Below are positions 1,930 through 64,000 of a DNA stretch of 64,000 bases, piece after piece (positions within the stretch are counted from its first letter, which is position 1; each line of letters starts with the position of its first letter). Made by a program: the position numbers and the translations under genes. Source of the stretch: a bacterium (GTDB lineage: Bacteria; Zixibacteria; MSB-5A5; GN15; FEB-12); contig JAHLKV010000002.1 of the NCBI GenBank assembly GCA_020444475.1, forward strand, positions 789,947-853,946, written 5' to 3'. The notes beneath the pieces are model-generated. The model was not told the DNA's origin. It searched no databases and saw nothing but the letters and a program-made list of their open reading frames with translations.

Positions 1930-1986
1930 GTGGTGCACGGGGACGTACTCCACACACATGTAGGCCGTGGCTGCTTGCAGCCCGGC
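1930..1986. repeat. Dispersed palindromes: type B repeat plus GTAGGCC REP-like hairpin
   Basis: Bases 1930-1956 are a copy of the type B repeat (GTGGTGCACGGGGACGTAC, with inverted ends), found again near 15.4, 15.6, 31.8 and 32.1 kb. Bases 1960-1986 start with GTAG and contain GGCTGCTTGCAGCC flanked by CCG/CGG; near-identical copies are at 29028 and 63801. The rest of the rex-TPR gap shows nothing else convincing. Confidence 0.8.
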
Positions 1987-13404: not shown

Positions 13405-15237
13405 ATGGGTATCAGCCGACGGTTTCCGTCCTATCAGCACGTGGCCGGCAGTGCCGCGGCGACTCTCAAGCGCTTTCCGCTGACCCTGCTTGCGGCCGTG
13501 GTGGCATCGGCCGCCGCAGTCGCCCTGATCGAATCCGACGGTGGCGAGCACGCGTCGCTGATCAATCGCATTCTCTCGACCGCCGCGCTTGGTATTCCGC
13601 TGTTTATCGCCCTGACGGCGTTCGCCGAACGTCTGTTTAACCGCTACAGCCGCCGCCTGCTTTTTCAACTCGGCGGAGTCGTACTGCTGATGATCTACTA
13701 TATCTCCCTTCCCGACGACCCGTTCGATCTATATACCGATACTCTCCGGTTTGTCCTGCTCTTCGCCGGACTGCATTTTCTCGTGGCATTTGTGCCGTAT
13801 ATCGGCGGAGCGCAGATACAGGGATTCTGGCAGTACAACAAATCGCTCTTCCTGCGTATCCTCATCAGCGCCCTCTACACGGGTGTGCTCTATGTCGGAC
13901 TGGCGATCGCCCTCGCTGCCCTCGACTACCTGTTTGGGGTCGATATCAACGAAGACTACTACGCGAAGATGTGGATGATCATGGTGGGATGTTTCAATAC
14001 TATCTTCTTCCTGGCCGGCTTCCCTCGGGATCTCCCCGCCCTCAATGGGGAGATGTCGTATCCAAAAGGGCTGAAAATCTTCACGCAGTTCGTGCTCCTG
14101 CCGCTGGTGGCGCTGTACTTCATCATACTGTTTGCCTATGAACTCAAGATCATCGTCCAGTGGGAATTGCCCAAAGGCTGGGTGTCGCAGTTGGTGCTCT
14201 GGTATGCGGTAGTCGGCACCCTGTCGCTGCTGCTGCTGCACCCGCTTCGCGAAATCGCCGAGAACAAGTGGATCAAGACCTTCATGACCTGGTTCTTCCG
14301 CGCTCTCGTTCCCCTGATTGTCCTGCTCTTTTTCGCCATCCTGACCCGCATCGCCGACTACGGCATCACCGCCAACCGGTATCTGGTGGTGGCGCTCGCG
14401 ATCGGGCTGGCAGTCGTAACGTTGTACTTCATGTTTGCCCGCGCCAAAGATATTCGCATCATACCGATCGTCCTCGCCGTCCTTGCGTTTGTCGCCGCCT
14501 ATGGTCCGTGGTCGGCCTTCTCGATATCCGAGAGCAGCCAGAAAAGCAGGCTGGAAGAGATCCTTGAGCGCAACGACATGCTGGTCGATGGTCACATGGT
14601 GGCCGCCGACGGGGAGTTGTCGTTCGAAGACCGTCGGGAGATGAGCAGCATTATCGACTACCTCAACGACTGGCACGGGATCGACGCCCTGTCGCCGTAC
14701 CTGTCCGACAGCATGCTTCTCGCTCTCGACACGCTCCCCAAATACAGCCGCTCGACCGAGGTGGTGGCGATGCTCGGTTTCCAGTATGTCGCGCCGTGGC
14801 GGACACCGGAAGAAGGGGCGTACTACTCCCTTAACACCGCCGACTGGGGAAGCCTGAAGGTAGACGGGTTCGACTACATGATTCGACTGCAGGGGGTGCC
14901 GATGCCGGATGCGAGCATGGCGTATGGGTTTGGCGATGACACGGTCTTTGTCGCGCTCGATACGATCACGACCACCATGTTTCTCTCACTGACCCGCGAG
15001 CTCGAAGATTCCACCCGCACGGCTGTACTTCCGCTTGCCGACACGCTTGGCGTGCTGGCGCTGAAGCCGATGCGTGGCTGGGCGCAGCCATCGGAAGAGA
15101 TGATGTTTGATATTGCATGCGGAGACTTTGTCGCTCGTCTGGTGCTCACGAATGTCGGTGGGTACATTCGCGACGACGGTCCGCATGTCGACACGTTCAG
15201 CGGCATACTGCTGATCCGCAAAACCAAAACCGAGTAG
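13405..15237 (+). CDS. DUF4153 multi-pass membrane protein
   Basis: Start at the ATG after GAAAGGAACG, in preference to the TTG eight codons earlier. The first 390 residues contain about eleven membrane segments with the DUF4153 pattern (FRALVPLIVLLFFAILTRIADYGITANRYLVVALAIGL). The last 210 residues form a soluble domain with no recognised fold. DUF4153 proteins have no firmly established function. It begins about 40 bases after the mscS-like gene, so the two may be co-transcribed. Confidence 0.85.
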   Translation: MGISRRFPSYQHVAGSAAATLKRFPLTLLAAVVASAAAVALIESDGGEHASLINRILSTAALGIPLFIALTAFAERLFNRYSRRLLFQLGGVVLLMIYYISLPDDPFDLYTDTLRFVLLFAGLHFLVAFVPYIGGAQIQGFWQYNKSLFLRILISALYTGVLYVGLAIALAALDYLFGVDINEDYYAKMWMIMVGCFNTIFFLAGFPRDLPALNGEMSYPKGLKIFTQFVLLPLVALYFIILFAYELKIIVQWELPKGWVSQLVLWYAVVGTLSLLLLHPLREIAENKWIKTFMTWFFRALVPLIVLLFFAILTRIADYGITANRYLVVALAIGLAVVTLYFMFARAKDIRIIPIVLAVLAFVAAYGPWSAFSISESSQKSRLEEILERNDMLVDGHMVAADGELSFEDRREMSSIIDYLNDWHGIDALSPYLSDSMLLALDTLPKYSRSTEVVAMLGFQYVAPWRTPEEGAYYSLNTADWGSLKVDGFDYMIRLQGVPMPDASMAYGFGDDTVFVALDTITTTMFLSLTRELEDSTRTAVLPLADTLGVLALKPMRGWAQPSEEMMFDIACGDFVARLVLTNVGGYIRDDGPHVDTFSGILLIRKTKTE

Positions 15238-15337
15238 CCCATCCGTCCCGGGTGGGCGAAGTAGGCCGCGGCGGCCCTTCTTTGTCATTCCCGGCCGCGA
15301 CCGGGAATCCACTTATGCCAGACCGGGTGGCCCGCGG

Positions 15338-15672
15338 GTGGCCCACCATTTATGGTGGGATGGTGCACGGAGACGTACACCACGCACGGACCCACGCGGG
15401 ACGGGCGTGTTAAAGAAGCCCTGGGTTAAGTTTATTGCTTGCCGAACCTAACGAGCCATGTGAGGGAATCGGCGTACTTGACAGTGAGATGCCGTCGGGT
15501 GTCGTTCGCTGGAGGCGAACTAGCACCCGACGGAACAGTTTTGAACGACCCGTTGCCGCCCACCCGGGACGGATGGGCTACAGGTAACTGGTATCTTCGT
15601 CAGGGTCCGTGGTGCACGGGGACGTACACCACGCACGGACCCACGCGTGACGCCATACGATCGATTCCACCA
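15338..15672. repeat. Cluster of dispersed palindromic repeats (types A, B, C)
   Basis: This gene-free stretch holds a type A palindrome (CCCACCATTTATGGTGGG, 15342-15359), type B repeats at 15361-15386 and 15609-15634 (GGTGCACGGGGACGTACACC), and one 42-base nested palindrome of type C at 15492-15533 (outer arms CCGTCGGGTG / CACCCGACGG, inner arms GTTCGC / GCGAAC). The same three types recur, inverted, at 31.7-32.2 kb. Confidence 0.85.
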
Positions 15673-24045: not shown

Positions 24046-24195
24046 CGAAGGGGTGGCGCTCAGGATTGCGTCGGCAGGGATAGTAGGTCAGCTCCGGTCG
24101 CGGTTCGCAAACCCGATGATGATGACCGGCTGTTCGCGCGACCGGTGCTGACATGATCGGCGACGGTCCCGCCCCGTGTTGCTCCCGCCATCCCT

Positions 24196-24450: not shown

Positions 24451-24478
24451 GGCGGGTTCGAAGACGGACTCGCCCTAC
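24451..24478 (-). repeat. GTAG-footed hairpin (GGCGGGT type)
   Basis: On the minus strand GTAGGGCGAGTCC leads into a loop and AACCCGCC. Related copies are at 26178-26205 and 63899-63926. The rest of the interval up to the subtilase gene (24479-24878) shows no supported gene; it is relatively AT-rich. Confidence 0.7.
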
Positions 24479-26082: not shown

Positions 26083-26205
26083 GGCAGGACCACTTCGTCC
26101 TGCGGACTCGGGTCCTGCCCTACTTAGGCACTGCATTGTGTCGTCAGGCGACCCCGCCTGACGACATCAAAACGAAGGGCGGGTTCGAGGACGGACCCGC
26201 CCTAC
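26083..26205. repeat. Three successive palindromes, two with GTAG foot
   Basis: Minus-strand GTAGGGCAGGACC...GGTCCTGCC is at 26083-26123 and GTAGGGCGGGTCC...ACCCGCC at 26178-26205. Between them, 26140-26165 is a perfect 11-bp stem GTCGTCAGGCG/CGCCTGACGAC with a 4-base loop. A sister of the last one is at 29395-29420. Confidence 0.8.
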
Positions 26206-29027: not shown

Positions 29028-29054
29028 GTAGGCCGCGGCTGCTTGCAGCCCGGC
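29028..29054 (+). repeat. GTAGGCC REP-like hairpin
   Basis: GTAGGCCGCGGCTGCTTGCA... matches the copies at 1960 and 63801 except for one base. Confidence 0.85.
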
Positions 29055-31695: not shown

Positions 31696-32215
31696 GATGG
31701 GTGGCGATGCCGGGTAGCCCACCATTTATGGTGGGTTTGACGAAAGCGCACGGGTGGCCCACCATTTATGGTGGGTTTCACGGAAGCGCGTGCGTGGTGT
31801 ACGTCCCCGTGCACCACGGAACCTCACGTTCCGTCGGGTGCTAGTTCGCCCCCGGCGAACGACACCCGACGGCATACCCCTCCCACACTTTTACCACCAA
31901 CTTTATGGCAACCCCGAGCACGGTCCCCTTTTATGAAAAACTATGTGTGCTGTGAAAAACAAAGATACGCGCCACACGAGGTGTTGCGTGACGAGGTCTA
32001 TGCATCAACACTGCAACGAGTTGGAGGGAAAAAGAGAAAAAACGACCCTGAAAAATGACAAAACAAACCCATTTCGCCGTAATGCGATGCCAAACATGCT
32101 TGTACGACGAAGAAGCCGTTTGACGGAAGCGCGTGCGCAGTGTACGTCCCCGTGCACCAAGCCTCTCAGCGTTCCGTCGGGTGCTAGTTCGCCTCAGGCG
32201 AACGACACCCGACGG
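31696..32215. repeat. Cluster of type A, B and C palindromes, with two ~98-nt direct copies
   Basis: Two type A palindromes (CCCACCATTTATGGTGGG) lie at 31700-31717 and 31757-31774, the first with a GTAG foot. Two direct copies of a B+C unit lie at 31776-31873 and 32119-32216; each ends with the 42-base nested palindrome. Between the copies is about 245 bases of clearly AT-rich sequence without a gene. Confidence 0.85.
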
Positions 32216-62420: not shown

Positions 62421-63383
62421 TTGGCCTTCACAAAAGACAGTCTGAAAATCGACGCCGAGAAAGTCGTCGATGAACTCTGCCAGACGATGCGGAATCAGAT
62501 CCGCAAAGACCTCAAAAAAACCGGCGCCGTGATTGGTATTTCGGGCGGGATCGACTCCTCGGTCTGCGCCGCCCTTGCCGCGCGCGCCCTGGGACCGAAA
62601 CGCGTGGTCGGCATCATGATGCCCGAAACGGACTCCTCGCCGGAAAGCGAACAGCTCGCCCGTGAGCTGGCCGGGACGTTTGGTTTCGAGACAATCAAGG
62701 AAAACATCTCCGCCGGTCTGGCCGGACTAGGCTGTTATGAACGCCGCGACGAAGCGGTTAAAAGCGTTTTTCCGGAGTTCGACAGCAGCTATACCTCGAA
62801 GATTACGATTCCGTCGAATATCCTCGAAAAAGACAGTTTCAACTTCTTCAACCTGACGATCGCCAACAAGGACGGCGAGAAGGTGAAGCGCCTTCCGCTC
62901 GACGCCTACCTGCAGATCGTGGCTGCGTCGAACCTCAAGCAGCGCCTTCGCATGACCACCCTGTATTTCCACGCCGAAAAGCGCAACTGGGCGGTGGTTG
63001 GAACCGGCAACAAAGACGAGCACATGCAGGGCTTTTTCGTGAAGTATGGCGACGGCGGCGCGGACCTCAAGCCGATCGCCCACCTGTTCAAGATTCAGGT
63101 CTACCAGATCGCCGAGTTCCTCGGGGTCCCGAAAGAGATTATCAAACGCACACCGACCACCGATACGTATAGCGCCGAGGTGACCCAGGAGGAGTTCTTC
63201 TTCGGCCTCGATTTCTATACTATGGATATGCTCTGGCATGCCATGGAGACCGGGGTGCCGGCGGCCGAAGCGGCCAAAGTGCTGGGGATCAGCACCGAGC
63301 AGGCCGAAAAGGGCTACGCCAACATTCAGCGCAAGATAACGGCGACCGAGTACCTTCGGATGCTGCCGCTCGAAGCAGAATAA
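62421..63383 (+). CDS. nadE: NAD(+) synthase, ammonia-dependent type
   Basis: A TTG start follows AAGGAGC. The PP-loop is GISGGIDSSVCAALAARALG at about 39. Other landmarks: VGTGNKDEHMQGFF, KYGDGGADLKPIAHLFKIQVYQIAEFLGVP and KRTPTTDTY. There is no N-terminal nitrilase domain, so it uses ammonia or a separate amidotransferase. It makes NAD from deamido-NAD. 320 residues, a little longer than usual because of an insert around 100-160. The gene is next to an acyl carrier protein gene, so a special role in a glycan or lipid cluster is possible. Confidence 0.93.
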   Translation: MAFTKDSLKIDAEKVVDELCQTMRNQIRKDLKKTGAVIGISGGIDSSVCAALAARALGPKRVVGIMMPETDSSPESEQLARELAGTFGFETIKENISAGLAGLGCYERRDEAVKSVFPEFDSSYTSKITIPSNILEKDSFNFFNLTIANKDGEKVKRLPLDAYLQIVAASNLKQRLRMTTLYFHAEKRNWAVVGTGNKDEHMQGFFVKYGDGGADLKPIAHLFKIQVYQIAEFLGVPKEIIKRTPTTDTYSAEVTQEEFFFGLDFYTMDMLWHAMETGVPAAEAAKVLGISTEQAEKGYANIQRKITATEYLRMLPLEAE

Positions 63384-63447: not shown

Positions 63448-63711
63448 ATGGCAGCAATAGACCAGGCTACGGTGCGACAGGAAATCCGCGCCTTCATCTA
63501 CGAGACGTACTTTTTCGGCGATGAGTCCGAGCAGTTCGAAGACACCGATTCCTTTATGGAGCAGGGCATTATCGACTCCACCGGCGTGCTGGAGTTGACG
63601 TCGTTCCTCGAAGAGAAGTACGGCGTGACGGTTGAGGATGACGAGATGGTTCCGGCCAATCTCGATTCGGTCGCCAACCTGATCTCATTTATAGAACGCA
63701 AAAAAAGCTAG
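63448..63711 (+). CDS. Acyl carrier protein (phosphopantetheine-binding)
   Basis: 87 residues with the helix-bundle pattern and the attachment site FMEQGIIDSTGVLELTSFLEEKYG; the serine is in DST rather than the usual DSL. Acidic C-terminal helices follow (VEDDEMVPANLDSVANLISFIERK). It is not the fatty-acid synthase ACP by context; such carrier proteins occur next to NAD synthase-like and AMP-ligase genes in glycan clusters. It starts 64 bases after nadE. The next gene lies outside the window. Confidence 0.92.
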   Translation: MAAIDQATVRQEIRAFIYETYFFGDESEQFEDTDSFMEQGIIDSTGVLELTSFLEEKYGVTVEDDEMVPANLDSVANLISFIERKKS

Positions 63712-63728: not shown

Positions 63729-63993
63729 GTAGGGCATGTCTGTCCGCAGACGTGCCATGACGTTCTTGTAGGGCATGTCTGTCCGCAGACGTGCCGTCAC
63801 GTAGGCCGAGGCTGCTTGCAGCCCGGCGCTTGTAGGGCAGAACCCGAGACCGCAGGACGAAGCGGTTCTGCCATCGCCTTTGAGGAAGTTGACGGCATGG
63901 CGGGTTCGAAGACGGACCCGCCCTACCAGCTGATAAGGATTTGAAGGCGCTTGTAGGGCAGAACCCGAGACCGCAGGACGAAGCGGTTCTGCC
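63729..63993. repeat. Cluster of six GTAG-footed palindromic repeats
   Basis: In order: GTAGGGCATGTCTG type twice (63729-63756, 63768-63795), GTAGGCCGAGGCTGC (63801-63827), GTAGGGCAGAACCC (63832-63872), an inverted GTAGGGCGGGTCC (63899-63926) and an exact repeat of GTAGGGCAGAACCC (63953-63993). Each is GTAG followed by arms such as GGCAGAACC/GGTTCTGCC. The two copies of the last type are identical over about 50 bases including flanks. Confidence 0.9.
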
Positions 63994-64000
63994 ATCGCCT

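Follow-up and report, generated by a model that had tools for sequence, protein, structure and literature searches.

What are the six short hairpins crowded into the last few hundred bases of this contig? The sequence in question, hereafter the window, is a 64,000-nucleotide stretch from a bacterium of the Zixibacteria (contig JAHLKV010000002.1, positions 789,947 to 853,946). The hairpins lie at 63729-63993, in a cluster between the end of an acyl-carrier-protein (ACP)-like gene (63711) and the window end. Each carries an unpaired GTAG foot on its 5' side, and their arms are of four types, which we call A to D. An earlier reading of the sequence alone had taken them for repetitive extragenic palindromes (REPs) of the kind moved by REP-associated tyrosine transposases (RAYTs), with six GTAG-footed copies in 265 bases, and all six were located. 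We conclude that the cluster is very probably a mosaic of REPs from four subfamilies, moved by RAYTs, in an apparently uncultured lineage. We attribute their movement to RAYTs because this genome encodes one with flanking type-A copies, because relatives hold further GTAG-foot RAYT-REP pairs, and because the arms follow the RAYT tree. The original interpretation is thus supported by a retained foot, by RAYT genes scoring above the family cut-off, and by the type-A flanks of one of them.

Folded as single-stranded DNA, A, B, C, and D each formed a stem with the foot outside it (z = -3.0 to -4.9 vs. shuffled sequences). The stem of A contains a C-A mismatch and that of D a bulged A, and the B copy in the window is open in its inner part. 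The arms had been described as unrelated, which needs partial correction: A and C grade into each other as the ends of one family, and the lower stem GGC/GCC is common to A, B, and C. Pairing holds in 93% of the stem cells of 18 distinct A/C sequences, and 23 cells show changes on both sides, compared with a shuffled mean of 9.0. In 12 type-B sequences of one length, 99% of stem cells pair, with 13 double changes vs. 3.3 when shuffled. Stem pairing is upheld by compensatory change in both families.

All four types recur across the genome assembly (3.41 Mb, six contigs, 79% complete). Contig C4, which carries the window and makes up a quarter of the genome (854 kb), was analyzed piecewise, and genome-wide numbers come from searches. 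Exact GTAGGGCAGAACC occurred 17 times in the genome, against one match to the reversed control, and type D was found in 46 copies within two mismatches, against none for its control. A loose A/B/C pattern gave 40 matches, about 37 of them plainly REPs by their arms, but because the reversed pattern yielded 23, the sequences count for more here than their number. With no foot preselected, GTAG was the most enriched tetramer abutting C4 hairpins of at least seven pairs (68 seen, 5.2-fold), followed by GTGG (61, 2.9-fold). The GTAG elements are short hairpins (palindromes of 20-50 nt) present many times per genome, and the foot is retained in other copies of every subfamily. On C4, the GTAG families comprise A/C, B, D, E (GTCAGCTCCG; about 70 nt long and often found as inverted pairs separated by 19-23 nt), GTCAGGTCGC, GTCCGAACCCC, and CCCACCCG, in line with the suggestion of the sequence-only reading that several REP subfamilies share one genome.

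None of the 44 A-D copies on C4 lies inside a called gene (A/C 0 of 22, B 0 of 10, D 0 of 12; binomial p about 5e-34), the calls being those of a codon-usage gene caller that assigns 82% of the contig as coding. The intergenic enrichment anticipated for GTAG hairpins is present, with 89 of 101 (88%) lying between genes. The corresponding values are 20-48% for seven other feet picked by hand (CTAG, with only four hairpins, was set aside) and 74% for GTGG, which is itself a REP foot here. The elements lie a median of 85 bp from a gene 3' end and reach their highest density in convergent spacers (1.4 per kb vs. 0.33 in divergent ones). Such a location would be expected if the hairpins were RNA elements selected at gene ends, such as terminators, mRNA stabilizers, or riboregulators, and their link to RAYTs were incidental; known REPs can act in RNA (PMC3733652). 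We consider this very unlikely. A terminator scan of the cluster found no terminator-like site and an Rfam scan no match, and an RNA role alone would not predict tandem piles of different families, their tracking of RAYT phylogeny, or their flanking of RAYT genes.

The window itself contains no RAYT gene, as had been noted, but five intact genes elsewhere in the genome exceed the cut-off of NCBIfam NF047646 (REP_Tyr_transpos), and a sixth match is a truncated fragment. The sequence-only reading had tied its interpretation to a Y1-type transposase flanked by the same repeats, and all five are Y1/HUH transposases. Type-A copies flank one of them, L002 (contig C2:66070-66465), on both sides: four lie upstream and one lies downstream, oppositely oriented and with the feet pointing outward. 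It aligns to E. coli TnpA_REP (4er8) over 154 residues (1.3e-28), and its translation contains the HVH and Y---NP motifs. Moreover, it keeps the motif W-Q-x-R-x-W-D-H-x-x-R, which carries the foot contacts of TnpA_REP (W-Q-[ED]-H-R; PMC6006769). The remaining four have other neighbors: GTGG-CCCACC hairpins at L003 and L005, a CCCACCGC hairpin preceded by GTAC at L001, and a repeated longer palindrome at L004. Because RAYTs are Y1 relatives of TnpA_IS200, and three of the five (L001, L002, and L003) give weak IS200-model matches, the hairpins might instead be non-autonomous ends of an IS200/IS605-type insertion sequence or another miniature inverted-repeat transposable element. This is exceedingly improbable, as those three matches fall below the IS200 cut-off, none of the five exceeds it, all five exceed the REP_Tyr_transpos cut-off, and each element consists of one GTAG hairpin, mostly of 22-48 nt, nearly all of them without a gene between them.

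Relatives extend the pairing of RAYT and REP. A RAYT match was found in 54 of the 61 genomes searched. There, RAYTs that carry the WQxRxWDHxxR motif have REPs with A, C-like, B, and several further arm types as neighbors, in each case on a GTAG foot. When arm type was mapped onto a 52-RAYT tree, 11 changes sufficed, compared with 23.6 for shuffled labels (none of 200 shuffles was as low). L002 groups with RAYTs that have A- and C-like arms (99% support), and the B arms of two relatives (G014 and G036) belong with a different RAYT group (95% support). Arm type therefore changes along with the RAYT phylogeny, and the GTAG foot is constant. A congener, G001, has E and CCCACCCG types beside its RAYTs, an arrangement not seen in this assembly. 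Within one clade with the motif WxxRC[YFH]DHNCR, the bases before the CCCACC stem are GTGG (L122, L123), GTAC (L124), or GTAG (L128), and here the foot itself seems to change. Another RAYT, L125 (C5:248633-249025), lacks the W-Q-D-H-R motif and sits amid 137-bp tandem units with palindromes CCGTCAGGTG...CACCTGACGG.

These results fit a mechanism modeled on E. coli, whose TnpA_REP recognizes a single-stranded REP through GTAG and lower-stem positions, tolerates change in the upper stem and loop, and cuts at a CT beside the element (PMC8266576). The fixed foot and lower stem and the variable upper parts seen here fit such recognition. By homology, a single-stranded REP would fold into a hairpin with an unpaired 5' GTAG, and the RAYT, a TnpA_REP-like HUH/Y1 enzyme such as L002, would bind the foot and lower stem, cut beside the REP, and join it to new single-stranded targets. 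Since the enzyme would carry out the cutting and joining, REPs could spread between genes with no transposase of their own. A and C are most likely served by L002, and the RAYT behind type B would be a related one that either is found today only in relatives or lies in the missing fifth of the genome.

A narrower version of this model would have L002 alone move all four types in trans, reading the foot and a general hairpin shape. The E. coli enzyme needs GTAG and only a few lower-stem positions, and it acts on REPs of another species (PMC8266576). Furthermore, A/C, B, and D copies often abut each other, and in this assembly, the WQxRxWDHxxR motif occurs only in L002. Still, we regard a single enzyme as somewhat unlikely. 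In relatives, B-type arms go with a RAYT clade other than that of the A/C arms, and further RAYTs may be absent from this assembly, which is 79% complete.

Several observations weigh against movement by RAYTs as the full account. Neither a transposition event nor an exactly defined empty site was seen. In this incomplete assembly, neither B nor D is matched by a cognate RAYT, although B has one in relatives. Type D is confined to the genus (3 of the 61 genomes), and searches yielded no RAYT to go with it, not even in G001, which is 99% complete. Two candidates for the type-D enzyme were rejected: the truncated RAYT L126 (C6:197252), which lies beside a type-D copy but is flanked by GTGG-CCCACC repeats, and the third RAYT of G001 (L149), which is flanked by another palindrome, GTGACCAAGGTCAC. 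There are thus more REP families than enzymes, and losses or the missing 21% of the genome may explain the difference.

Of 99 GTAG elements, 61 have another within 150 bp, compared with 14 (maximum 34) under random intergenic placement. Excluding E-E pairs, neighbors are head-to-tail in 25 of 33 cases within 120 bp (p 0.005) and in 18 of 21 within 30 nt (p 0.0015), where the p values treat pairs as independent, which duplicated segments are not. Head-to-tail neighbors often differ in family and are spaced 1-8 nt apart. In our reading, a new element would insert beside an existing hairpin on the same strand.

Type B showed a further peculiarity, in that its outer stem is nearly fixed while its inner stem varies from copy to copy, with 14 different arms among 18 elements (five entered by hand from earlier searches, three of these from a second congener, G002). 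The inner arms are almost always complementary, with a mean stem of 4.9, vs. 3.2 in shuffles. The arms of type B also turned up in 33 of the 61 related genomes, where the loops between them are very different. In several copies, the inner hairpin is closed by C-GAA-G (e.g., C4:350965, C4:269275, and L007:1513), a loop that is unusually stable in DNA, and this would fit selection on single-stranded DNA. If the variation exceeds what mutation and selection produce, the loop may be rewritten in the course of REP copying, for instance through snap-back synthesis on a single strand, although we think this improbable.

We view the cluster as a further example of the known RAYT-REP system (PMC2817692, PMC3733652, PMC6006769), here from an order that is apparently uncultured, rather than as a new kind. 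The REPs and bacterial interspersed mosaic elements of E. coli, with their RAYT TnpA_REP (YafM; structure 4er8), share the GTAG foot, the imperfect stem, the W-Q-E/D-H-R foot-contact motif, and opposed REPs flanking the gene, as at L002. By contrast, many more REP families occur per genome here, with other arm sequences, and L002 is only moderately similar to the E. coli enzyme in sequence. The GTAG REP super-family (24 families; Di Nocera 2013, PMC3733652) likewise has the GTAG tag, intergenic locations near gene 3' ends, several families per genome, and in some families self-complementary inner loops. It differs in that head-to-tail pairs are the commonest close arrangement on C4 and in that the lineage here is apparently uncultured. 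Class 2 TnpA_REP REPtrons, with GT[AG]G feet (Quentin 2018, PMC6006769), show the same pairing of a RAYT with its own REP, and both GTAG and GTGG feet occur here, but several of our REP families have no RAYT in the assembly. The less usual features are the many orphan families, the head-to-tail mosaics, and the hypervariable yet complementary inner stems of type B. Our results add RAYT-REP systems across a little-known bacterial order, and the many pairs with one foot and changing arms offer a natural data set for asking which enzyme residues recognize the stem and how REP families persist once their transposase is gone.

The cluster and its neighbors are listed in Table 1 with the other REP copies in the window. 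Because the window end is also the end of C4 (853946; window position 64000), the cluster is cut off. The start of contig C3 matches the array at the C4 end (97% over 75 bp) and runs on into the first part of a gene for an acyl-ligase-like protein. In six relatives (G001, G002, and four others), the ACP gene is followed by a short spacer without a GTAG array and then by the ligase. Therefore, the array probably continues onto C3, lies within the ACP-acyl-ligase gene pair, and arose in this lineage. We do not claim a clean empty site, because the G001 spacer holds a hairpin that is possibly a decayed REP.

Table 1. Hairpins and neighboring genes in the 64-kb window (window coordinates)
Feature	Position	Strand	Remarks
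REP type C	63729..63756	+	GTAG foot and 10-bp stem with one T-G wobble, loop TCCG; GTAGGGCATGTCTGTCCGCAGACGTGCC
REP type C, copy 2	63768..63795	+	Head-to-tail, 11 nt past copy 1; GTAGGGCATGTCTGTCCGCAGACGTGCC
REP type D	63801..63827	+	GTAG foot, stem GCCG-(A bulge)-GGCTGC/GCAGCCCGGC; 5 nt past type C; GTAGGCCGAGGCTGCTTGCAGCCCGGC
REP type B	63832..63872	+	GTAG foot, outer arms GGCAGAACC/GGTTCTGCC; one mismatch in inner hairpin; GTAGGGCAGAACC...GGTTCTGCC
REP type A	63899..63926	-	GTAG foot, C-A mismatch in stem; type shared with flanks of RAYT L002; GTAGGGCGGGTCCGTCTTCGAACCCGCC
REP type B, copy 2	63953..63993	+	Opens second 121-bp tandem unit, cut by contig end; GTAGGGCAGAACC...GGTTCTGCC
121-bp tandem unit (B and inverted A)	63825..64000	+	Two copies, second truncated
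ACP-like gene	63448..63711	+	Immediately upstream of cluster; name suggested by sequence, orthologues by tblastn
NAD-synthase-like gene	62421..63383	+	Next gene upstream of ACP-like gene; name suggested by sequence
REP type D	1960..1986	+	
GTAG-CCCATCCG hairpin (CCCAC type)	15234..15256	+	
GTAG-CCCATCCG hairpin (CCCAC type)	15559..15581	-	
Long GTAG REP type E (GTCAGCTCCG...CGGTGCTGAC)	24083..24152	+	Type shared with flanks of RAYT L127 of congener G001
REP type A	24451..24478	-	
REP type B (GGCAGGACC variant)	26083..26123	-	
REP type A	26178..26205	-	
REP type D	29028..29054	+	
GTAG-CCCACCAT hairpin	31714..31735	+	

Of the 12 contig ends, at least seven (C1 start and end, C2 end, C3 start, C4 start and end, and C5 start) have GTAG REPs no more than about 350 bp away, so the assembly seems to break at REP arrays. 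In six cases on C4 (285966, 335950, 441645, 610436, 769456, and 805180, the last being window position 15234), the GTAG foot supplies, with its TAG, the stop codon of the gene called upstream of it, and the same overlap occurs beside the RAYT L002 (L002:1322).
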